Position numbers and translations under genes: made by a program. 64,000 nucleotides of DNA from Polytrichum commune. Taxonomy: Eukaryota; Streptophyta; Polytrichopsida; Polytrichales; Polytrichaceae. The stretch lies in contig OX485805.1 in NCBI GenBank assembly GCA_950295325.1, positions 12,742,501-12,806,500 on the forward strand. The letters are read 5' to 3'. A model generated the notes under the pieces. The model was not told the DNA's origin, searched no databases, and saw only the letters and a program-made list of their open reading frames with translations. Shown one piece after another: positions 13,061 to 61,210 of the stretch; positions within the stretch are counted from its first letter, which is position 1, and each line of letters opens with the position of its first letter.

Positions 13061-14649
13061 AGTCAAATACTTATTTTATTTTTGACATCATGTAAGGGTG
13101 CTTAAAAACTGCTTGGAAATTTTGCTAGAATTATTTGTAAAAAAATGTTTGTAAAACGTTTAAGATTACATAAACATCAACATATTGGGAAATGTGAAAA
13201 ATTGTGATGTAACATTTTGTACCTATTTGTGCCGTTTAATAACGTTTACACATTTGTAACATATCAAAACATTTGTGTAACATTTGACGTAACATTTATA
13301 CCTATTTTCAATGTTTAAGATTACATAAACATCAACATATTGGGATGCCCTCATGTAACCTTGTGGAAATAATATAGGAAAAAACTAGAAAACACAAGTC
13401 CTATGGATGGGTACTATGTCAATGGTGTCACAACCATTCTATAGCCATGATAAGAGGCTATCATTGCTATCATTTTGAAAGGATGGTAAAGCTTGTCATG
13501 TTTTCGTCACCAATACTGTGCAATACACATGTCTTGAATTCATCAAAATTGGGCCAATATGCTTGGTATCTCTAGGAAGAAAATGAAAAGATTGGACTTC
13601 AAGTACCTTTTGTATGTATGTATGTTTTTCTTTTTCTTTCTTTTCTTCAGATTTCTATGCAAGGTGGAATTCAACAACAAACAATCTCATGTGGGTGACT
13701 CCGGTCATCTTAGAAATTGGTTAAGGAAAATAGGTAGGGTTAAATTCTTATTCCTTGGAGCTAAAACTTACAAACTTTTGAGTTCTAAGAAATGGTTGAA
13801 GTGATATGACATTTGTAGGTATAAATAAAATAGGATGGATAAAAAGATGAAGTAGTAGGAAATTGGTAAGTTGTGAGCAAGAATCACCACCACTCTTAAT
13901 TGCGTCCTAGTCTAAGTGGGGAGTTCCTCTTCACACCATAAGATTCACCACACGCATGTGCAACTTAAATTCACTCAATGTCGGAGAAGTGGTGTGTATA
14001 ACACCTTTTTATTACGCCATGCAAGCATTCATAAATGCTTGTTCATCATACAATGTCGAGAACCCATGGAAAACAAGAAAAGAAACTCTTACTAACTCCT
14101 AACCTAAGTATGCCCTTCCTCCACAAGCGGAGAGTTTGGCCCACCCAACTTCATCCCACGCTTCATCATTCTGCTAACACTGAGCTCAGTCTAGGATCCA
14201 CGCCCTCGGCACCTCCCGCGTCATTCACTGCAACCACCACTAGAAGGAATCCTGTCCAAATCAACCCTCTAGGGTAGCAGGAATTTCACTGTAAAAAGGC
14301 ACCGGTATGGGTGGGTAGTGGTATGTCGCTGCAGTCCTCATGGCCTAGTTAAAAGCCGGGTGACGGACCCAAAAAGCCTCTGTTCACACCTTTTGGGGCT
14401 TCTATGGGTGACGGTCCCCATCCCAAGGGTGATGCATACCCTTTGCCCATTCTACCAAAATGGGTGGGGTGGATTGGGTTTTGGGTGACATTGGGTAGGC
14501 GCCCTCTTGGTGACGTGCACCGGAATTGGGTGCTTTGTGGTGCGCACCATCTACCCGAATCGGTGGACATACCTAGATGGCCACCGTTGTGGGTGCACAC
14601 ATGCCATCCACCTATCATGTGACGACACATCCCACATTGGAGTATATGG
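13061..14649. other. Intergenic; short direct repeats, no gene
   Basis: A ~33-bp segment (TTTAAGATTACATAAACATC and the following bases) occurs at about 13162 and again at about 13313. An 81-codon ORF (13559-13804) and an 80-codon ORF (14035-14277) have no recognisable motif. From 14350 on, GGGTGACGG-like words appear that foreshadow the adjoining G-rich array. Confidence 0.4.
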
Positions 14650-15025
14650 AGGGTATGACAAGTAGGGTAAGGGTAAGGGTTGGGTAGGTGTTGGGTAGCG
14701 ATCGGGTGGATGTTGGTAGCGGTCGGGTAACGGTCGGGTAGCATTGGGTGGGTGTTGGGTTGGCGTTGGGTGGGTGTTTGGGTAGCGTTGGGTAGCGTTG
14801 GGTGGGTGTTGGGGTAGCGTTGGGTGGGTGTTGGTAGCGGTGGGTAGCGTTGGGTAGCGGTGGGTAGCGGTGGGTGGCGTCGGGTAGCGGTGGGTAGCAT
14901 TGGGTGGGTATTTGGGTAGCGTTGGGTAGCGTTGGGTAGCGTTGGGTAGCGTCGGGTAGCGTCGGGTAGCGTTGGGTGGCGTCGGGTAGCGTTGGGTGGG
15001 TGTTGGGTGGGTGTTGGGTGGGTTA
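14650..15025 (+). repeat. G-rich minisatellite, ~10-bp units (GGGTAGCGTT / GGGTGGGTGTT)
   Basis: About 375 bases made of GGGTAGCGTT, GGGTAGCGTC, GGGTAGCGGT and GGGTGGGTGTT units. GGG runs every 7-10 bases on the plus strand give strong potential for G-quadruplexes or a slipped structure. The proline/threonine-rich 159- and 183-codon minus ORFs across it reflect the repeat and are not called as genes. It lies on the left side of the exon-fragment composite. Confidence 0.85.
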
Positions 15026-15437
15026 TCCATATCTTATGTACTCATTGCCACGACCTTCCAGCAAGTTCACACATTGAGTTGAACTTGTCTGTGCATGTAT
15101 CCTCGACTATAATTTAGTGCAAAGACATTGGAGAGTGGGAAACGCATCCATATCCAATAGCAGCTCAAGTGGGCAAGGGACAATGTCCTGAATTGTTATT
15201 GTTTCTTGAATTTCCTTCTCAACACACAAATATTCAACAATTTCACATACCCAAGTGGGACACAGTATACATGTCAAAACTGCATCTGGATAGTCCCCTT
15301 GAAGAAGTGCATTTCCCAAAATCTCCAAAAGTGACAAAACGAATTCGGGCTCTGCTCGCTGTGCTTGGCTCTTGATGGACTACTGGCGACATATTTTTGG
15401 GGAGCTTGTAGATAGAACATCCATCGCTTCTTGACAA

Positions 15438-16968
15438 TGCCACCCATTTGTGGGTGTCAAGGTGATTCATTGTCCTCCCACCATAATTCTGTAGATTCAG
15501 ATCCAAAGTTGGATTAGAGATAATGGAATGCAAAGATATACAAAAAAAAAAAAAACCTAAACTGAAGCTTTTGAGATGTGGATAGACAATGCAAGGTAGC
15601 AAGCAATGTTAAAGATGATAAGTAGCTCGCACAGATGAAAATTAGTACCAGGAAGTCAGGAGTTCTCACCATCACTGTGAAGTGTGTTTCATATTCTGAC
15701 AGGCTGCTGGGCTCTGTTGTGTATACATTATTTGAGAAACGACCCTGCTCAAAGTATTCCTCATCAGTATGGCCATCCACTTCTGTTGATTGAATTTCTA
15801 TCTACTTACTATTACTTTCTACACTCTTTTATGTCACAGCTTCTGACAAAAGATGTCATTTCTGACACATTACACAAACAAGACATGTATTAATCTGGAA
15901 CTGACTAAAGTAGTAAGTAGTGTCATCACACCTGATATTCAATGAGCAAAAACATATGACTTACCCAGAAAACATCACATATAAAAATTTCAAAGGGTTG
16001 CACACTCCTCAGTAGAACAACATAGCGAAGATCAAACTTTCTCCCGTGGAATAATGCTGGTTGGTCGATATACTTCTGACCAATTTTGGGTCCAGTTTCC
16101 ACTAGCCTCACTAGTGCTGGCAAGCTCCCTACAATAGATGTATCAATGGTGCGGGCCATATTGCAGGGCTTGACAATCCACAAGTTGTTTTCATTCTTCT
16201 CTTCCCGTTCTAAAAAGTCACCAATGAGAGCAGGTAGTTGTCGCTCCATATTGTATGTGGGTTGTAACCAAGATGGTGACCCAAAAGCCTGACAATGAAA
16301 TCAGACAAGATCTCTCCTTGAACCTTACAAATGGAGGTCTACAAAGGTCTACAAATTTCTACTTCACAAGTTAACATGTGTCCAGTAGAACGTCTGCAAC
16401 GAGCGTCAGTCAAAGATGTGATAACCCCACCCTTGGCTGACTAGAGAATTCTCTACATATTGAGTAATCAATTCTACCATTCGTAGACAAACTCTGCAAA
16501 ATTTTGACTTACAAGACTGCATCTCCCACTTTAAGGTGCCCACATTTCAAAACTTATATTGGTTATAAATGGTTGATAAACCTGAACTTTCAATGTTGAA
16601 GCACATTCACAAATAACTCAAGCAGTACATGCAAAACCTTTTCCTATCATCTTAACAGCAAACCTACAACTTCAAGGTGTACTCGGTGAGCTGGGAGAAC
16701 CTTCTGCATAGTGTCCGCCAGGTTATGCTTCATAACAATACACGCCTCTGATGGGAACTGATTGACATATTGGTGTGGTTTAATCCCTGTTGCTTTGCAA
16801 AACTCATCCTATATTTGCATATGTGTCCAGATGATGTCGGCATCCTTTGGTTCATCCACTGCATATGCACACAAGACAAAAACCCTAAAGCTTATTTCAA
16901 ATTCCAGAGTCAATAGTTTTTGCACAGGTTCTTCCTCATCCTCATAACTACTTTCATTACCACCACGC
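15438..16968 (-). pseudogene. Fragment of a tubulin-tyrosine-ligase-like 12 (TTLL12) gene, four exons with introns
   Basis: Minus-strand exons: 16701-16968, 15965-16288 (108 codons), 15670-15744 (25 codons) and one starting at 15488. Junctions are canonical and in phase. The exons encode EPKDADIIWTHMQI, HQYVNQFPSEACIVMKHNLA, SPSWLQPTYNMERQLPALIG, NNLWIVKPCNMARTIDTS, ETGPKIGQKYI, KFDLRYVVLLRS, SEYETHFTVM and NYGGRTMNHLDTH, matching the ATP-grasp TTL domain of plant TTLL12-like proteins. Defects: an in-frame TAG follows MQI near 16808; the segment before EPKDADIIW is shorter than I expect for the family; and homology stops after LDTH near 15440, so the domain's C-terminal part is missing. The N-terminal half is absent too. 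It lies downstream of GlnRS and pyrophosphatase fragments on the same strand and is probably a captured, non-functional piece. Confidence 0.88.
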
Positions 16969-17327
16969 CTAAATGTGCAGAAGATACTGGCCACACAGCG
17001 AAAAACTATCAAGTTGAGGTTTGATTACACAGAAAGGTATAAGCAAGTATGCTTTCAAGATCAAAATGTTCCAGATTTTGTTCTCAAAAGAACAACATCT
17101 GCCCTTGTGCCTTGAAAGTTCAAGCCTAGAATTCTCAGACCTGAACCTTGCCTTCATCTCAAAATGCAAGTGACCAGCACTGTTGAGTCAGTGTTGATAC
17201 ATACCCTTCAAGGTTTAATATCTTTGCAGTGCTAACTGACTTAAAAGTGATACGTTAAACATTCATTCAACTCAAAACCCATCCTTTTAAGTCTTGCTAC
17301 TATATACCTATGTAGACTTGTACTAAC

Positions 17328-17800
17328 CTCAGTAGGACACTCTTGCCTGGCGCAAGACCATAGTAGTCTTTGGAGTCTTTCAACCGAACATCTGAAGACT
17401 CCATGTACAAGACCTTTGAGAAAGGTACCTGCCAACCCAGCACAATTCTTACTGATCTCAGAATATGGTTTAAATCTTGCTACCAAAAATAAATTTATCT
17501 TCAGAATCGTATTCAAACATAATATTGTGATACTTTTTACATTAGACTCACCCACAAATGATCCTTGCAAATAATGAACTCATTTCTTCTGAGACACAAT
17601 TCACACAAGACTGATTGTTGTTCTACATCCGAATCCTAATGTCGATAATACTGTAGGTAAGATATTCCAACTGAAAGATGACAAGATATAGTGCTTCATT
17701 AAATCAAGAACCTTACCTTGTAAGTGCCTTCTCTGGCATCAGGCCAAATCTTTGCCTCAAGCTCTTCCACCTCCCCCTCATTGAAGTTTGTGACAACAAC
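17328..17800 (-). pseudogene. Fragment of a plant glutaminyl-tRNA synthetase gene, two exons
   Basis: Two consecutive minus-strand exons: 17717-17800 (28 codons, VVVTNFNEGEVEELEAKIWP...) and 17328-17428 (101 bases, VPFSKVLYMESSDVRLKDSK... KDYYGLAPGKSVLL). They join in phase at AAG|GTAAGG and a CAG acceptor. The sequence corresponds to the start of the anticodon-binding beta-barrel region of class I GlnRS. No catalytic domain (HIGH/KMSKS) exons and no following barrel exon were found nearby, so only an internal slice of the gene is present. It cannot encode an active synthetase. Position and strand tie it to the neighbouring pyrophosphatase and TTLL12 fragments. Confidence 0.8.
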
Positions 17801-18354
17801 CTGCATGGCAACAACAAAAAGAACATTATTACAGAAAAGGCTAGACCTGTAAAACTTTGCAAGGGGATTTCAAATAGGAGCTAAAGAACCACAGGCCTGG
17901 AGTACTAGAGGAGACTTGCTTATTGCTTAGAAAATGCCCAATTCACATTCTGCTCAAAGTTTTGAAGTTCTCCCATTCAGAGCCCGTGACAGAAGCAATT
18001 TCATTTCAGATTCATCTACAAACAAGCATCACACAGTGAAAGAGAGGCAAAGACTAAACTGCAATTTTGCAAGTTAACAACCCGTTTTTTTTTTTTACCG
18101 AGAAACAAAGTGTAAACTTCACCCCAGGTTGCAAAGCCATGGTGCGTATGCAGCAAAAACAGGGGAGTCCACACCACGGGGGCTTTCTTTGAGAAGCAGA
18201 GGAAGATATAAATAGCTCACTTAGGTAACAGTGAGCACTAAATAAACCCTACCAAAACTGAAGCTCCTCCTGTAGAACTCGTGATTGGCAGATAGTTGTT
18301 ACCCTCCAAGTTTCAGAAGTATGAGACTGAGTGACGTCTACTTTTTGCATAGTT

Positions 18355-19476
18355 TTAGACAAGTGAGAGTTCGCCGGTGGGGACAGACCTCTTCACCAGC
18401 TTTGCCCACGCTTCATTGGTCTCCAAAATCACCTTCAACGCGTATGCCTGCATCAACAAATGCAATAGATATTTATGAACAACTTTCCATTGTCTATGAA
18501 TTGGAAGTATCAGGTGCATGTTATTCAACAAAGACGGTTGGGGTAAGGTAGATGTGCCATTGGACACCTATATTTAAGTGGTATATAGATAGGTGTGCTT
18601 CAAGAATAGATACCAAAGAGACACGTGGTCAAAAGAGATTGGACTACATGCTCAAAAATGATAACCGATCTAGATTCAATAATTGGGAGACTTACATTAC
18701 CCTTTAACGAGCATCAAAATCTTCAATTGACAATGTATATCATATTCATATGCATTCCAGAGATTACGAGGAAAGTGGCTATGGCCTTGATTTGGATTTG
18801 CTAACCATCTCATACAAATCGAATGTTCCATATCCTAGGATAGTGGGCTAGTAAAAGAAGTAACCATTTGATACTCATCTATTTTAGTGCCAATTGGATT
18901 CATGCAGATTTAGGTCGGATAAATGGAAGCTTGTTGATTTCCTCGTACTGGATTCTACAGGTGTTAATAAGATTGAATGCAGATTCAACACTGCTGACCC
19001 AAAGCCAGTGACAAACTAAACCTATCATGTATACTGAGCAGCTCAGAGTGTGTCCAACAAGAATCAGCTGCAAAATGATTCTCTCAAAAATTGGCTTTCA
19101 AAGGTTTTCAAAGGCTTCCAAAGTATGTCATAAACCTTCATTGCCCACCAATTATTCAGTGAGAGAACCTTAAAAGAGTTCTCAAATTTTTGAGGGTGGG
19201 GTTTTAGGGGTTTGCCTCTCTCAGAAATTGGTGGGCAGATAATATTTGGAAATCATTTGGGTGTTATAGGTGAGACAGGTATGCAGCTTCGCTGCCAAAA
19301 ACACCTAGAAAAGAGGACAATCTTAAAGGGATTGTTGGAGTCTCGGATAAAATAATGAACCTGCTAAACCATCATACCTTATCAGCAGCCTTGTCACCAA
19401 GCCCAAACTTGTTAGCAGGCTTTCCATCAGGGGTTTTGTAGTCCTGGAACCAGTCTCGAATTGCTGTCAAGGTGCC
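18355..19476 (-). pseudogene. 3' fragment of a plastid-type soluble inorganic pyrophosphatase gene, last two exons
   Basis: Minus-strand exon 19378-19476 (33 codons, GTLTAIRDWFQ and DYKTPDGKPANKFGLGDK) ends at AAG|GTATGA. Exon 18355-18447 follows a GATGCAG acceptor and encodes AYALKVILETNEAWAKLVKR then SVPTGELSLV and a TAA stop. This matches the C-terminus of plant chloroplast soluble pyrophosphatases (PPA6-like), which hydrolyse PPi in the stroma. Upstream exons with the catalytic DxDPxD region are not seen, so the gene is 5'-truncated. The reading frame and splice sites of the remaining part are intact, which suggests either recent capture or constraint by chance. Confidence 0.85.
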
Positions 19477-22275
19477 CTGTAACATAACACACAAATATGA
19501 ACAAAGAATGTCATATTTACCAAACTAAGGATCTTTGGAACATGAAAATCTTCAGACTTCCTAGACGTAAACAGTAAGGCGTCCTGAACTTACAACTTAC
19601 CACACTGGAGGTGTTGCTTTGTGTCCCCGATTGCCACACGTTGTTGAAAGGCTCACTATGCGAAGAAGAGTACTGAACTTCGCAGGAACGACAATGTAAA
19701 TAGATACGTCCACAATTTGATGATGGATAGAGAGTAACTTATAACACAGTGGACTACACAATAAGTGTTGTAATGCGAGCTCAAGTCCTGCATGAAGGGA
19801 TCTATAGAGCACGATGTGCAACTATGAACCGTGACACCAGATTCTAACTACAAACAGGAGGGATGAGGCAAGGGGTAGTGGTAGACCAAGCAATTGATGG
19901 AGCGATGGATGGACATAAACTTATAACACAATCGACTACACAATAAGTACTGTGTTGCATTGGTAGAGCCGTTTCAACGGGGACGATCCCAAAGGACCCC
20001 GATGGAGATGGGAAACCCAAGCAGTCCAGCATTCCCTCCGCCGCCAAAGAAACCTCGTACTCATGGATGAGATCTTTCATGGTTTCCAATTGGCTCTGCA
20101 ATTTGTGGTTCACAAATGCAAGTTGACGGCCCACAACTACAATCTCATGCTCTATCTGGTCACCCTCGGAGCCAGACATCAGGAAAGGTGGACAACAAAC
20201 AAGGGTTTCAGGAGGTTGCTTGGATTTGTACTCCACATACCCACAATTTCCTCACACAAGCAGATTTTAATTTGACACACTCACAACAATGCAAGCATCA
20301 GCTGCACCTCACACAAAATATTGGAATGGGGGCTGCCAACCTGCTGGAACTCCAAAAAATGGCGCCGAAACAAGTTGCACAGGGCAATATTAGGTATTCA
20401 AATTTAGGGTTTGGAGGAGAACAGGTGGGTGTGACTGTGCGGGCAACCATTGACCACATGCCAAAGATCCAGTTTGGGCGAACGGAAAGAGAGAACACCC
20501 ACAACCGAAGAATAACAAAAACCCACAAATTGATCCAATTGATCCAACCCACATGCTGTATTTTGCACTTAATAGTAGTTGGAGTCGTTCCTGGACCTTT
20601 GCCACACGTTTGTTGCGCTCGGCCTCGTAGGTGCCTGGCTCTTCCACAACAAACCTCCTGAACGCCCCCACCCTCTTCCACACTCCCTTCCTCCTCTGCG
20701 TTCCCCTCCTCCTGCGCGCTACCTCCACAGTCCATGTTGCACTCTTTGTCCTCCCTTCCTTCCACAAACACTCGCCTACGCTTGGCCTCCCGACTTTGCG
20801 CCTCCTCCTGCCCCTAGTCGCAATCACTCCCTCCCATCTCTACTCTTCCCTCATCTGCATGCCTCAATTCGCATTGCCCTCTTCCTTCGATGCAATGGAA
20901 TATAGGTTGCAAGGAGCCAACGCCAAGAAACTCGACCTCTCCACTCGCCTGGACAACTCCAACGCTAGCATCCCGCAATAATTTGGCATGCTCAAAGAAT
21001 CCCAAGTAGGCAGGCGTGGAGGACTTCTCCATGCGAGGGAAGGATTATACGAATACAACACACGAACCTGCGCACATACAATACCCTAGCTGAGCACATG
21101 GGCGAGGTGGGTGCCACAGTCACCGGGTTTGGTGTTGTCACCCACATGGGCAACCGTGTGGGCGGACAGCACATCACAAGTACATGCAGCCTGCGAGACA
21201 TCTAATCATGTTCCTAGTTCTTTGCCAATAATTCAATGATGATTGGATATTATTGCGCAAATTATCTAATGGTACATTCTGTGTGTTCGAAGTGATTTTG
21301 CTTGCATTGGCCACAATTTAATGATTTGAGCATATGTGGACTTATTAGCATGCCACATAGGTATGGCTGAAGTGGGTAGTCACCATGCTTGCGTACTCAA
21401 CAATGTTTACAAACAACCAATGCGCATGGAGAAACAAAAGGGAGAGCACAATAGGACTATTAGTGCACCTAACTTGATCAAGCCATGAAATTATCCTACA
21501 CTCCCATTTGGACATAGGCATGTCTCTGCATGTAAACATACATGCCTCAATTGAATTTTGGCGGGCTCTCTGACACAATGCATTGGAATTGTCGCAGAAG
21601 TAGTAGCCACATATAATAGAGCTTGCAAGGTGTGTTCAATACATGTTTCAAGATTTTACAAGGGCGCCATAGTGTTTTATAAGGAAGGTGGATATGGGTG
21701 TTGTAACAACATTAGGAGCAGCTTGGGGCTTCTTCTTCGGAACAGTCGCTCTGGAGAATTCTTACATGAGTGCAAGGAAAATGTGAGATTGGTGTAGTTT
21801 TCATCACCACTTTGTTCGTGATTAGTGAACCAGAAAGGAAACAGAAGTTGCGTTGTGTAGTGGTTAATTACACTCCTCCGTTGTGCTCATGGTTTTTTTT
21901 TGGGGTGGAGATCGAGTTGCAATAGCGGAAGTATGTCATCTGGATTATCATGTGAGCAAGGAGGTGAGTGTGAGTCATGGGGAACCCATTCGACGGAGAG
22001 TGATGATGCACGTGCATCATGAATTGACAGTGGGCTGGGTGTGTTAAGTTATGTTAAGTTATAATGTCATGGTGCATCATTCCCCCTCCCTCCAATGTCT
22101 CGCGTGTGCACCTACTAGAATAAAAGTGCTATACTTTCTGCACCCTTATTGGAGTACTTCTATGTAATTATTATTTCTCTAATGACCTTCACATATTGCG
22201 TATTGCATATTGACATTACCCATATTGTCATTACCCAAAAAAAATGTGCAAAAATGCTTCCAAGACCAAAAGGGG
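19477..22275. other. Unidentified region with two minus-strand open stretches
   Basis: A 130-codon minus ORF (19844-20236) has a charged, possibly coiled-coil part (VNHKLQSQLETMKDLIHEYE). A 145-codon minus ORF (20390-20827) begins very basic and contains TYEAERNKRVAKVQERLQ, the kind of short basic helix seen in several unnamed plant nuclear proteins. A plausible donor lies in the latter after ERLQLLL. They could be exons of one further gene fragment or of a transposon gene. Overlapping plus ORFs are proline-rich and look like shadows. From 21800 to 22275 I see nothing coding. Confidence 0.3.
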
Positions 22276-23424
22276 TTATTCTATGTCGCACATCAATTCA
22301 CAATCACCGACAAGAACGGTTTGATGGCCATATGAATCTCCAAAGTCCGCATCATAGAGGTCTCTCCCAGACGACAAACAAGTGTAGTTTTCCAAAACAT
22401 GTCCGACCACCCATGTCTGCGTACATGTGGCCAACACAGTCTGATTCACACCCACAAGTTTCTTGGAGGGTATTCTGATTGCCACTAATTCTCCGCTCGT
22501 AGATCCGTAGAACTCCCCCCACATAGGGTATGCTGCATTGTTTCCGCCACCCCATGGGCGTGTCCCATGTGCATGGCTGAGCATAGGTGCACAACAACCA
22601 TCGGGCGCAACAAATTCGGGGGATGGGCAACCACTCCCTTGCAACCCTGGCGATGGTGCGTGTGCAACAACTAGTTGTTTTACGAAGCAGGCAGGTGGTA
22701 GCGATCCCAACATTTGTAGGGACCCGGAGGAATCCCCTCCGTTGTTGTATTCATCCCCCCCCCCCTCGACATCCAACACAGGAGATAGAGCAACGGCTTG
22801 CACACCCGGAATTTTTGCACATGTCGGCTGTAGCAAGGGGGCCTCCAATATTTGCTGGACAGACTCGTTGACACGTGCCAACGAGCCTTGGATAGGCTGC
22901 ACATCACTTTGGGCACACCCGCTCCCCTCACCCAACAGCAATGGATGTCCTTGCCGAGGGAGTTCCAAGCATCCAGACCTGACATCCGTGGACATGCTAG
23001 GTGGGAAGCCTCCAATGTGTGCCTCCATTGTGTGCCCATCACATTGCAGTGGCTGCGGGCCGCAATGCACAACACGTGCAACATGTGTATTTGTCTTGGT
23101 GCAATTGGTATCCCCTACAATGGCGTGCTGAACACCAAGGCTGGTATTGTGTGTTGATATTCCTGCACGAGCGCGTCGCAGAGAATTGGCTGCCCATCCC
23201 GCATATGATGGCTTTGAAGACACATTGGCCCAGTTGAAACGCCGTTTTTTGTGAGGAATTTCTTGTGCCAAGGACATGACGAGCGGCGATGCATTTGATC
23301 GACCAGAAGGTTGTGCGAGGATGGGAGGAGTTGGATGACACATGATTCGCCGCAAATTATTAATCCGACAACGGTGTACGGACGGATGTGCCGTGTAACA
23401 ATGACTGACAACCAGGAAAACCAC
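22276..23424 (-). CDS. Hypothetical 382-codon ORF, family not recognised
   Basis: This is the second longest open frame of the window, with an ATG at 23424 and a stop at 22276. The protein is rich in cysteine, glycine, serine and proline. It has a basic patch near residues 55-85 (HKKRRFNWANV, SLRRARAG) and a glycine/asparagine-rich stretch near residue 225 (EGGGDEYNNGGD). I see no domain signature, signal peptide or membrane segment. The block is more GC-rich than its flanks, which favours long chance ORFs; a 197-codon plus ORF overlaps it. It could be an exon of a gene fragment upstream of the 15-19 kb composite, part of a transposon gene, or chance. Another minus ORF at 23608-23877 (SNRKRHEHAVDSHPQS) may belong to the same unit. 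Confidence 0.3.
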   Translation of the reverse strand: MVFLVVSHCYTAHPSVHRCRINNLRRIMCHPTPPILAQPSGRSNASPLVMSLAQEIPHKKRRFNWANVSSKPSYAGWAANSLRRARAGISTHNTSLGVQHAIVGDTNCTKTNTHVARVVHCGPQPLQCDGHTMEAHIGGFPPSMSTDVRSGCLELPRQGHPLLLGEGSGCAQSDVQPIQGSLARVNESVQQILEAPLLQPTCAKIPGVQAVALSPVLDVEGGGDEYNNGGDSSGSLQMLGSLPPACFVKQLVVAHAPSPGLQGSGCPSPEFVAPDGCCAPMLSHAHGTRPWGGGNNAAYPMWGEFYGSTSGELVAIRIPSKKLVGVNQTVLATCTQTWVVGHVLENYTCLSSGRDLYDADFGDSYGHQTVLVGDCELMCDIE

Positions 23425-24833
23425 CTATTATGATGGTGTAAAGATGCCAAAGTTGTTTCATGGAAGTGAACGCGGGTATGGAACATGTGCAAATTCACAC
23501 GTACCTAAACTGCCGCAAAACATGAAAGTACATGACCCACACGGCAAACAAAAAAATCCCACGGTTCAATTCTGAAGTGAGGTTGCAGTGTGCCCACATG
23601 AATAGCGCTAAACACAAGAAACCCCACCTGTATTGGCCGCACGCCCAGGTGGCTCGATTCCACACATGCCGCTAAGGGAAGCAATTGTGCGTGCGACCTC
23701 TGTGTTTGCAGGGAATGCACCCAAACCGCGGACACGCACATGCACCCTGGCTCTCAATGTTGAGGAGGTGGATTGCGGATGTGAGTCCACCGCATGTTCA
23801 TGGCGTTTGCGGTTACTGGGAGGGTTGCGGTCGTGAGCTCCCATTGTGGCTGGTCTAGACCAACAAATTTGAGGCAAATATGGTCACAAATAAAGCTTCT
23901 ACGTGTGAATTAAGGCAAATGTTGTTGCCTCCCACCCTAGGGTTTCGTTTGGAACAATACTTCATGTCTGTGCAGAAGCCCGTTCATCTGGGACAATCAG
24001 GTTGCTGTTGGGTAGCAGACACCTTGGGAGAGTACAAACCCATGAAAGGAAAAGACAGGAAATGACCAAAATAAGAGTGGCCCGGGGGGCGCCATTGACA
24101 CCCAACATGGGTGCCATGCCAACCAATACGGGTGACAACCACCCACATACGGTGGCCACCCTCTGAAGTGCATTGTGCAACCCATGAACGCCAACCCCTT
24201 TGCAACCCTTTGCCCAAAACCCAAACCCGAACCCCAAAAACCGCTACCCAAGGGCTACCCAAAGGGTGGTGGTCACCCGATTGGGTAGACATGGTAACCG
24301 TCACCCATGTCAACCAGGTCACACCCAACATTTACTGACCTGTACCCAAACTGCAGTTGCGGCGGCAGTCAGACTGCGGGTTACAGTCAGAATGGCAGTG
24401 CACATAGACCCTGCCAGCACCGCAGGGGAGGGTTGATTTGGACACGATTCCTTCTAGTGCACCCGCTCTGTATCCCTAGCTGCTCCTTCAACACAATCTT
24501 CCACCCTCTCACCTCACCACCGCAAAAAAATTTGTGATAAAAAACCATAATTCTCTACATTCACATTGTATCAAAAGATTTCAACAATAATTGTGTTAAT
24601 AAGAATTGTGTAATATAATGTTCAATTTTATTCAAAAGATAATGAAAATTGCCAAATTGCCAATTGTCAAGTTTGGCCCATGTAGGAAATAAATGTCTCA
24701 TTGGGTGTTTAAGAATGAAGAGGGGAAAATCCATACACATTGGACAAAGCACTACTCTTTGGTATTATTTAAGACATGCTCTCCTCTTAATCATCCTCAT
24801 CAATTTCTCTCTTCTTATCTTTGATCTTCAATC
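23425..24833. other. Intergenic, no gene recognised
   Basis: Short overlapping ORFs on both strands only. At 24080-24340 many CACCC/GGGTG words occur, similar in flavour to 14350-14640 but not alignable by eye. AT-rich from 24520. Confidence 0.4.
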
Positions 24834-25257
24834 ATGGATTATCGAAGAAGAGAGATTTTGTGCTCTCTTATGATCTTTATGGTTTTGAAGTATTTTATCG
24901 TTTCAACTATGGCGATACAAAAAACCATCATGTATCATCACAATGCTTCAATTATGATGATGACATATTTTTTGTTTGGGAGCAAGGAGAGGGTGGTGTG
25001 GAAATTTGACCGGCCAAGTGGATATGTGTCACAATTTCTTCTTGGATCATATAATGCAAAAATGTTCAAAGATCGTGTACGGGTGAGTAAGCCTACTATT
25101 TTTTATTTATGTCATTTGCTTGGACCCATGTTGAGCAAGAAAGATACAAAATTAAGACTTTGTATTCTAATAGAGTGTAGAATTTCTTTGACATTGCATC
25201 GATTGGCAACCGTTGATACTTTGCATACACTTGCCAATTTGTATGGTATTTTTTATT
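24834..25257 (+). pseudogene. Second PIF/Harbinger transposase relict, N-terminal part only
   Basis: A 141-codon open frame with the same layout as the first relict: a short hydrophobic/basic N-terminus, then MFKDRVRVSKPTIFYLCHLL, then the segment ending RLATVDTLHTLANLYGI. The first relict has the corresponding MFKQRTCVCHNTFKFLCEML and RLGIGNTLCTIREVYGV. It has no DDE nuclease part: the frame ends at 25257-25259 where an unrelated inverted-repeat sequence begins. It is therefore truncated. It is less decayed than the first relict over the shared part. Confidence 0.75.
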
Positions 25258-25321
25258 GAGTTGGGCTTCTCCGGCCTCTTGAGGCCGGACAAGAAACTCC
25301 TCCTCCGGAGAAGCCCAACTC
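25258..25321. repeat. Perfect 17-bp inverted repeat (hairpin) truncating the Harbinger relict
   Basis: GAGTTGGGCTTCTCCGG at 25258-25274 is repeated in inverse at 25305-25321. Inside is a second palindrome around CCTCTTGAGG. The sequence to the right (to about 25510) carries TAGTGTAAAC and ACCGGTGG words resembling MITE ends (CACCGTAGTGTAAACCGGTC near 25489-25508), so a MITE-like insertion that cut the transposase is likely; target duplication not found. Confidence 0.7.
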
Positions 25322-27480: not shown

Positions 27481-27770
27481 ATTGAGAGGCTAATTAGGCT
27501 AGTAGGCACTAATTAACTAATAAACCCAGCTCTTAGCTGCGACTACTTCTAACTAAATAAACCCAGCTCCTTCATAAACCCAACTCCTTACTTCTAACTA
27601 AATAAACCCAGCTCCTTCATGAATCCAGCTCCCTACTTCTAACTAAATAAACCCAGCTCCTTCATAAACCGAGCTCCTTACTTCTAACTAAATAAACCCA
27701 GCTCCTTCATGAACCCAGCTCCTTACTTCTAATTAAATAAACCCAGCTCCTTCATAAACCCAGCTCCTTA

Positions 27771-60000: not shown

Positions 60001-60770
60001 GACACGGCACCCATCTCTTTTGAGTTGGGCCCCAATCGCTATAGTGCTACCACAGTAAAAGGGGTCTAGTAAAAAATGATCCCCATATGTTTGTGGGTTA
60101 TTCATCTCAGTTTGGAGTTTTTGATATTGATTTGGGGTTACATTTAACAAAAGAAAAGTCTCCAAATAGAATATGGTATGGTGGTTATTATGTTTAGTTG
60201 ATTTGTGAGTGCAATTAGACCAATCGCGAATTGAGATGACTTGACCTCAAACCTATAGGAGGCAACTTTGAACATGGGTGGATGATGATATGTATGCTTG
60301 CATGCACATAACATTGCTCTCATCCATGATCTTGCTAAGCAAGTTGATATTGGTCTCTTTTTATTGTTCTATTTCAACACTTTACATTGCACTACTTAGT
60401 AACTAAGTAGCTAGATAATGGTCTCTTTCCAAAGAAAGAAGTAACTTTCAAAACAATTTTGAGTTACATTGCAATCTTGGGCTCCTTGGAAAGCTCTTCA
60501 AAGGTTTTAGAGTAGAGGCACCTATTCTCGATCAGGGCCCCATTCTGAACCTATAGGGTGTCATAATTTTGATTACACTGGGATTGAATTTTGAACATGC
60601 GGGAACCAATAGTGACATGACACATGTCCTTGGTTTGAGTGCTAAGACAAGAAGAAATGAGTAGATATGGCAAACTCTAGACATTGGCATTATGCTTGTG
60701 CCAACTTTTGGCTTCAAAAATTCTCAGTAATTTGAATTTAAGGAATAACAGTACCAAAAAAATTTGGAGT
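60001..60770. other. Intergenic, no gene recognised
   Basis: No motif-bearing ORF or repeat. Confidence 0.45.
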
Positions 60771-60911
60771 CCTCGTGATTTCTATCTTCCTAGAGAGGAA
60801 AAATTTGCACCTCCTTATCCTTCCCCAAATATGGTGCAAAATCTTTCAAGTGATCGGTTATGGACGCCTCTACTCTACATTATGTGAACAAAATCAAAAG
60901 CAAAAAATGAC

Positions 60912-60985
60912 CACTCGAAGGAGGGGTCTAACCTCCAACCTTGTGGTTAACAACCACACACTCTAATCAACTGAGCTATTCCAAC
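60912..60985 (-). pseudogene. Decayed tRNA-Asn(GTT) copy
   Basis: Same length as the intact gene but with eight substitutions: five C-to-T, one G-to-A, one C-to-A and one T-to-G. Three of the C-to-T changes are at CpG sites. The TTCGA of the T-loop (B box) is now TTAGA and D-arm GG is GA, which should impair transcription and folding. The anticodon GTT is unchanged. Confidence 0.88.
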
Positions 60986-61131
60986 TTTCTCCTCCTGATT
61001 TCTATCTCCCTAAAGAGGCAAAATTTGCACCGCCTTATCCTTCCCCAAATTTGGTGCAAAGTCTCTTAAGTGATCGGTTATGGGCGCCTCTACTCTACAT
61101 TATGTGAATAAAACCAAAAGCAAAAAACGAT

Positions 61132-61155
61132 CGCTAGAAGGAGGGGTCGAACCTC

Positions 61156-61188
<33 letters not shown>

Positions 61189-61205
61189 AACTGAGCTATT
61201 CCAGC
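61132..61205 (-). tRNA. tRNA-Asn (anticodon GTT), second copy
   Basis: Identical over all 74 bases to the plus-strand gene at 55486-55559, in opposite orientation about 5.6 kb away. Acceptor stem, D-, anticodon and T-arms are intact. A T6 run for Pol III termination follows (plus strand AAAAAA at about 61122-61127). It is the right-hand member of the 220-bp duplication. Confidence 0.97.
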
Positions 61206-61210
61206 TTGTT

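Follow-up and report, generated by a model that had tools for sequence, protein, structure and literature searches.

A probable Pack-CACTA element carrying genomic pieces of three host genes in the moss Polytrichum commune

How did intron-bearing pieces of three different genes come to lie side by side, all in the same orientation, in the genome of Polytrichum commune? The locus belongs to a stretch of 64,000 nucleotides (C3:12742501-12806500 of the 408-Mb assembly, hereafter the window), in which positions 15442-19620 hold pieces of a TTLL12-like gene, of GlnRS and of a plastid-type pyrophosphatase (PPase), in this order along the plus strand and all encoded on the minus strand. We found that window 14238-24459 has the sequence features of a non-autonomous CACTA transposon, and we are highly confident that it is a Pack-CACTA carrying genomic pieces of three host genes. 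We call this element E1, and the six elements with which it was compared E2-E7.

Ends of the element and donors of its gene pieces

E1 starts with CACTA and is bounded by terminal inverted repeats (TIRs), CACTAGAAGGAATC(C)TGTCCAAATCAACCCTC at one end and the same sequence inverted at the other, which enclose 14238-24459 and are separated by 10,158 nt (Table 1). Three hallmarks of the CACTA superfamily occur together in E1, namely TIRs starting with CACTA, a 3-bp target site duplication, and subterminal repeats both direct and inverted, the inverted counterpart of the GTTGGGTAGC-like repeat lying near 24225-24262 at the opposite end. Those of Pack-CACTAs were also found: host-gene fragments between CACTA ends, an apparently non-autonomous state, and several copies with the same type of end. 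A 31-nt terminus pattern allowing up to 3 mismatches had 103 matches in the genome (53 + 50), while the reversed control had 0. Among 100 listed termini, 19 adjacent pairs stood head to head at 7.6-49.8 kb, and 4 neighbours less than 60 kb apart were in other arrangements. The flanking 3-mers were equal in six of the seven elements (CAC in E1, ATA in E2 and E4, TTA in E3 and E6, AGA in E7). Matches shorter than 100 columns were set aside in the element comparison; on this basis the left end of E1 was whole in E2, E3 and E5 and partial in E4 and E7, and no match of at least 100 columns was found in E6.

The identity of the captured pieces was examined with eight open reading frames (ORFs) of the window. 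Only one scored above its Pfam family cut-off, the TTL domain in ORF 15926-16300 (6.8e-24, exon T2); three short ORFs hit the family predicted for them without reaching its cut-off (0.0087 and 0.099 for tRNA-synt_1c_C, 0.016 for Pyrophosphatase), the sole match of the last PPase exon was to an unrelated family (0.13), and three TTLL12 ORFs had no Pfam match. When the fragments were spliced by hand and compared with PDB chains, GlnRS (1.8e-6), soluble PPase (3.9e-12) and TTLL7/TTLL6 (8.9e-6, 8.7e-5) were recovered. The name TTLL12 comes from leucine-rich segments read upstream of the TTL domain in the donor ORFs; likewise, the PPase is placed in the plastid on account of a transit-peptide-like N-terminus read in its donor ORFs, with no database hit behind either assignment. 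Exon bounds were taken from alignment to the parental genes, and the introns between captured exons start with GT and end with AG. The measured block, 15442 to about 19620, nearly equals the 15438-19476 of the initial annotation, whose three gene identities and common minus orientation agree with Pfam, PDB and the donor alignments. Its description of retained introns with canonical junctions and intact splice sites was likewise borne out by the GT/AG bounds of the E1 introns. Co-orientation of three fragments alone is weak evidence, having a chance of 1/4.

Longer parental genes were sought in the same genome, as the initial annotation had suggested, and were found on C1 and C2. The TTLL12-like donor is C1:77606944-77608789 (BLAST, 95.2% over 1,868 contiguous columns), the GlnRS donor C2:41008728-41009355 (97.6% over 629) and the PPase donor C2:44759824-44761530 (95.1% over 1,711), matches below 80 columns having been set aside in this alignment; given such contiguous alignments, the matches are not due to chance. 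A genome search with 15438-19476, covering 40 scored candidates out of 4,763 at first look, listed 44 matches: the window itself, 8 donor or element places, 34 rows of an approximately 320-bp repeat and 1 short row. Searched genome-wide, the TTL family gave 9 matches, comprising the donor, the window, E2, E3 and 5 rows from other TTL genes (C4, C6). By ORF reading, all three donors are longer than the captured pieces and have further exons around them: the PPase gene starts near 44757647, the GlnRS gene has its HIGH motif at 41013078-41013311, and the TTLL12-like gene spans about 77603040 to 77609600. Full-length genes overlooked at the window are thus ruled out, the pieces being partial slices of longer donors elsewhere. 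None of the donors falls inside any of the 19 TIR pairs, and, among the 100 TIRs listed, the closest lies about 0.2 Mb from the TTLL12 donor, 0.6 Mb from the GlnRS donor and 4.4 Mb from the PPase donor. The approximately 320-bp dispersed repeat occupies window 18559-18890 within an intron of the PPase piece, at 72-78% to 34 places among the matches listed; since the alignment with the PPase donor runs through it without a break, this repeat was probably present before capture.

Sister elements and the junctions between pieces

Five of the six other elements, at loci on C2 and C3, carry slices of the donor genes of E1. Since these slices lie between the same ends, E1 and its relatives are, by this comparison, a Pack-CACTA family. 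The left end and the leader/TTLL12 junction of E1 recur in E2 (C3:24.05 Mb) and in E3 (C2:14.38 Mb), both with a longer TTLL12 slice, and E3 additionally holds a 565-bp 5′ GlnRS slice at 98.6%. E6 (C3:29.29 Mb) has an 829-column TTLL12 piece of the longer slice, outside the portion retained in E1. The GlnRS/PPase junction of E1 recurs in E4 (C3:21.51 Mb), where GlnRS extends down to 41006934, while in E5 (C3:41.09 Mb) GlnRS up to 41010949 is joined to PPase from 44761416, a join point different from that of E1. E7 (C1:77.36 Mb) did not match any of the three donors. All three genes together were found in E1 only, not in any of E2-E7 as read. E2, E3 and E4 also gave short matches, three in number (100-222 columns, 73-91%), to sequence beside the GlnRS and PPase genes; these were taken as dispersed repeats and set aside.

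The junctions of E1 are short. At the leader/TTLL12 junction, which recurs in E2 and E3, the two matches overlap by 5 nt (15442-15446); 3 nt (17307-17309) separate the matches at the TTLL12/GlnRS junction, found only in E1 among the seven elements; about 13 nt of filler (17930-17942) lies at the GlnRS/PPase junction, recurring in E4; and the PPase piece overlaps the next segment, D, by about 2-6 nt near 19619-19624, recurring in E4 and E5. The D/E junction (19958-19962) is again found only in E1 among the seven. These features would agree with end-joining or template switching rather than with homologous recombination. Given that the leader/TTLL12, GlnRS/PPase and PPase/D junctions recur in sister elements, an assembly artefact is not a likely source of the arrangement. 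Of the two outcomes that the initial annotation had named as fatal to its proposal, complete genes interleaved here and an assembly artefact, neither was found.

The copies were then compared with their donors. Over 1,841 TTLL12 columns, 47 differences from the donor were common to E1, E2 and E3, 5 were common to E1 and E2, 2 were multiple and 32 were private (11, 10 and 11). Over 1,475 PPase columns, 37 were common to E1, E4 and E5 and 37 were private (12, 11 and 14), and the GlnRS copies of the same three elements had 11 common differences in 224 columns. For TTLL12 and PPase, copies differed from each other by 1.2-1.8% and from the donor by 3.25-3.5%. Given the 47 and 37 shared differences, we read the pattern as a single capture of each gene, after which the copies were amplified. 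The differing slices and join points of E2-E6 suggest, in turn, that the copies took shape as larger captured stretches underwent internal deletions.

Table 1. Features of E1 and its target site, in window coordinates
Feature	Position	Strand	Basis or remark
Target site duplication, left copy CAC, 3 bp	14235..14237		
Left terminal inverted repeat CACTAGAAGGAATCCTGTCCAAATCAACCCTC, 32 nt	14238..14269	+	97% complementary to 24428-24459
Left end of CACTA element proper	14238..15441		match to E5 extends to 15446
Subterminal tandem repeat, unit about GTTGGGTAGC	14679..14997		
Captured TTLL12-like piece with introns; T1-T3 (internal exons), cut T4	15442..17306	-	donor alignment
TTLL12 exon T4, truncated at element junction	15442..15488	-	donor alignment
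TTLL12 exon T3	15670..15801	-	donor alignment
TTLL12 exon T2, TTL domain	15965..16288	-	donor alignment, Pfam
TTLL12 exon T1, in-frame TAG (donor codon Asp)	16683..16968	-	donor alignment
Captured GlnRS fragment, anticodon-binding region, two exons	17310..17937	-	alignment clean to about 17929, then about 13 nt filler
GlnRS exon G2	17328..17428	-	donor alignment, PDB match of spliced fragment
GlnRS exon G1	17717..17800	-	donor alignment, PDB match of spliced fragment
Captured plastid-type PPase fragment, last two exons, native stop, 3′UTR	17943..19620	-	BLAST bounds 17929-19624
PPase terminal exon P2, native TAA stop	18355..18447	-	donor alignment, PDB match of spliced fragment
PPase exon P1	19378..19476	-	donor alignment, PDB match of spliced fragment
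Segment D	19619..19958		97% to C1:70747481-70747821; common to E4, E5
Segment E, internal family sequence	19962..21495		in many members at 71-96%
Patchwork, four nearly abutting 124-204 bp pieces	21609..22220		match C7, C3, C2, C6 at 82-92%
Segment G, internal family sequence	22228..23982		in many members at 66-97%
Right end of CACTA element proper	23983..24459		common to all six other compared elements (E7 from 24040)
Right terminal inverted repeat, ending ...GATTCCTTCTAGTG, 32 nt	24428..24459	-	
Target site duplication, right copy CAC, 3 bp	24460..24462		

Coding state and rival explanations

Compared with the donors over 387 codons, E1 has 11 synonymous and 14 non-synonymous differences (pS 0.044, pN 0.015). 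Two of the latter fall in the T1 codon that has turned from Asp into the stop TAG, which is also a stop in E2; other stops were found in T2 of E3 and in PPase P1 of E5, and E3 has lost the acceptor AG of T3, as has E2 that of T4. In E1 all acceptors are AG and the donor sites GT, P2 (terminal, with its TAA) and T4 (cut) being without a donor site. Joined as P1-G1-G2-T1-T2-T3-T4, the exons form a single frame with one TAG; the phases agree at both P1 > G1 and G2 > T1, for which the chance expectation is one in nine. A spliced chimeric RNA from E1 is therefore possible as far as its sequence goes, and such a transcript would need to skip P2, because this exon ends the PPase frame and brings the 3′UTR. 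A further possibility, in which the fusion would act as a functional chimeric gene or yield a regulatory RNA directed at the parental genes, draws on these intact GT/AG sites and the one frame, and on soybean Tgm-Express1, a CACTA element whose fragments are spliced into chimeric transcripts according to excerpts of PMC1947982. We consider it improbable, and a chimeric fusion protein unlikely, because T1 carries the TAG, P2 brings the native stop and 3′UTR and no 5′ gene end was captured; in addition, T4 is cut. Gene prediction at E1 could easily yield a false chimeric gene, and annotators should be warned of this.

The initial annotation had proposed a Helitron or a Pack-type DNA transposon as the carrier; a DNA transposon that captured and co-oriented pieces of three genes is what we found, while the Helitron and Mutator types gave way to CACTA, with TIRs of the form CACTA...TAGTG and a 3-bp duplication. 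Several gene fragments per element are typical of maize Helitrons and Pack-MULEs are known to carry gene fragments in plants, but Helitrons have neither TIRs nor a target duplication and the target duplication of MULEs is 9 bp. The termini of E1 start with CACTA, are 97% complementary and are flanked by 3 bp, not 9, and sister elements likewise have such termini and 3-bp duplications, which leaves a Pack-MULE with next to no probability; the same applies, for these boundaries, to a Helitron that captured and co-oriented the pieces, even though Helitrons are called fragment carriers in excerpts of PMC1947982. Segmental duplication or unequal exchange could also have juxtaposed the fragments, with a transposon then inserted around them by chance, and the retained introns are what genomic duplication would give. 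Slices of the same genes, however, recur between ends of the same type in five further elements, located on C2 and C3, and the left TTLL12 junction is identical in E2 and E3, so that this explanation seems very improbable too.

Several results weigh against the Pack-CACTA reading itself. The flanking 3-mers of E5 are unequal (TAT/ATA), and a search with the joined flanks of E1 found no uninterrupted empty site among 40 of 363 candidates. In excerpts of PMC8903248, the duplications of rice and maize CACTA elements are put at 5 nt; those of PMC8978399 give 3 bp, as in E1. Transposase_21 (PF02992) is abundant in this assembly, where 150 out of 643 candidates were scored, but none of these 150 listed places lay within the 19 TIR pairs when compared by eye, and six Transposase_21 domains used as tblastn queries gave 0 hits at 1e-2 in E1-E7 and in parts of three additional elements. 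Since all 36 query-control pairs of the positive control matched, the elements examined are probably non-autonomous. Exonic differences were slightly fewer than non-exonic ones (25/1167 against 94/2952; Fisher p 0.079, donor branch included), which in our view may reflect constraint on the donor branch; because that branch is included, neither this nor pS/pN shows selection in the element. Finally, the shared differences may lie partly on the donor side, and for this reason they do not fix the order of capture and amplification.

On the Pack-CACTA reading, an ancestor element would have captured each gene piece once, as genomic DNA, the family would have multiplied through CACTA transposase supplied in trans, and copies would have lost different internal parts. 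In E1, a TTLL12-bearing left part would then have been joined to a right part bearing GlnRS and PPase near 17306-17310. This join may go back to an internal deletion in a larger ancestor, or two neighbouring elements that were truncated in complementary ways may have fused; the captured exons would be cargo, now decaying. The fusion route, which rivals the deletion of a three-gene ancestor for this one step only, is a serious contender that we stop just short of favouring. The leader and TTLL12 part resembles E2 and E3, the GlnRS, PPase and D part resembles E4 and E5, the TTLL12 slice of E2 and the GlnRS slice of E4 both run past the E1 junction, and the three genes are together in none of the six other elements. 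Conversely, TTLL12 is accompanied in E3 by a 5′ GlnRS slice, as a three-gene ancestor predicts, and segment E of E1 is nearer to E5 while segment G is nearer to E2 and E6, so that fusion needs more than one exchange. A tandem-insertion model (Catoni et al. 2019) is described in excerpts of PMC13317346 and PMC8903248. Under it, a TTLL12 lineage and a GlnRS and PPase lineage could have fused into E1, with exons of three housekeeping genes in one phase over seven exons, now with one stop; that reticulate gene shuffling is thus preserved stepwise in a non-seed plant is a suggestion we make only tentatively.

Further segments and comparison with known systems

Beyond the three gene pieces, segment D is probably a fourth captured piece. 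Segments E and G look like the CACTA family's own sequence, and the patchwork between them resembles templated filler or an old composite. The tested ORFs of E and G had no Pfam match below 0.05. One of them, a 382-aa minus-strand ORF of segment G (window 22276-23424), has counterparts of 381 aa in E6 and 358 aa in E5, and is a candidate accessory protein of the family. In E2, a 188-aa ORF with a RED_C match (1.3e-6; extract positions 382-945) is perhaps another captured host gene piece, so that other family members may carry other host genes. E5 also contains an NIF-phosphatase-like ORF (1.6e-9).

The ORF-based search for a transposase covered a selection: 10 ORFs of E4-E7 and 4 at C2:38.33 and C2:28.73 Mb, and a further 10 from E2, E3, E6, C4:47.5 Mb and C2:38.33 Mb. 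A DDE_1 transposase fragment of E7 (4.4e-16; positions 1169-2020, within the left terminal region) and a DDE_Tnp_4 piece at C2:38.33 Mb were rejected as the family transposase, both being of other superfamilies. A DUF7869 ORF of E5 was rejected as well; it lies in a block of about 16.7 kb and belongs to a nested high-copy element, because at least 39 other DNA copies were found at 98-100% (40 of 1,129 candidates scored). DUF7869 is not named in the open-licence literature searched.

Outside E1, a high-copy repeat starts 71 bp to its right (window 24531 onward), with at least 38 copies at 99% sharing an identical first base (40 of 363 candidates scored), and an ORF within it (24825-25259) had no Pfam match. 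A 45-bp satellite-like array of five copies lies at 27544-27770, and a tandemly duplicated 220-bp unit (two copies, 89% matches) at 60770-61207.

The capture and rearrangement of gene pieces is shared with rice Pack-MULEs and maize Helitrons, from which E1 differs in termini, duplication length and transposition chemistry. From Arabidopsis, maize and soybean, excerpts of PMC8903248 and PMC1947982 describe Pack-CACTAs or CACTA elements that bear fragments from several loci. Like Tgm-Express1 of soybean, which holds five host gene fragments (PMC1947982, excerpts), E1 is a CACTA element with several unrelated fragments that include exons, introns and splice sites; unlike it, E1 has other genes, another host lineage, and sister elements in which slices of the same donors are visible. 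The expression of Tgm-Express1 has been demonstrated according to the same source; for E1 it is a possibility. E1 likewise shares TIRs with a short target duplication, a non-autonomous state, multi-locus fragments and mosaic relatives with the Pack-CACTA and Pack-TYPE elements of Arabidopsis, rice and maize, as excerpted from PMC8903248 and PMC13317346, but differs from those in its TIR (CACTAGAAGGAATC), its donors still present at 95-98% and its bryophyte host. A PsaD gene of the genome likewise points to a moss or related bryophyte as the likely host: it scored 302 bits with PDB entries 7ksq and 7kux and 300-302 bits with 6l35/7xqp and 8htu, of which 7ksq, 6l35 and 8htu are from the moss Physcomitrium patens, whereas the following group, in which seed plants occur, reached 276 bits at most; the highest row, 9vfj, is a chain of several domains with 159-164 bits for its individual stretches. 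With the Jozin CACTA elements of Chenopodium it has in common a TIR starting with CACTAG, structured subterminal repeats, captured gene fragments and a 3-bp duplication (PMC8978399, excerpts); Jozin elements encode transposase, while none was found in the E1 family.

In Sphagnum moss, CACTA elements make up 6.8% of the genome, and the sole mention of gene capture in the excerpts of PMC9946827 concerns sex chromosomes; no report of gene capture by CACTA elements in mosses was found in the open-licence literature searched. Taken together, this kind of element is already known from flowering plants, and the E1 family adds traceable donors and half-way relatives within one genome. With donors, copies and intermediates in a single assembly, it becomes possible to reconstruct in which sequence capture, amplification, deletion and fusion took place, and the bryophyte host extends gene-fragment capture by CACTA elements beyond the flowering plants in which the cited papers, as excerpted, describe it.

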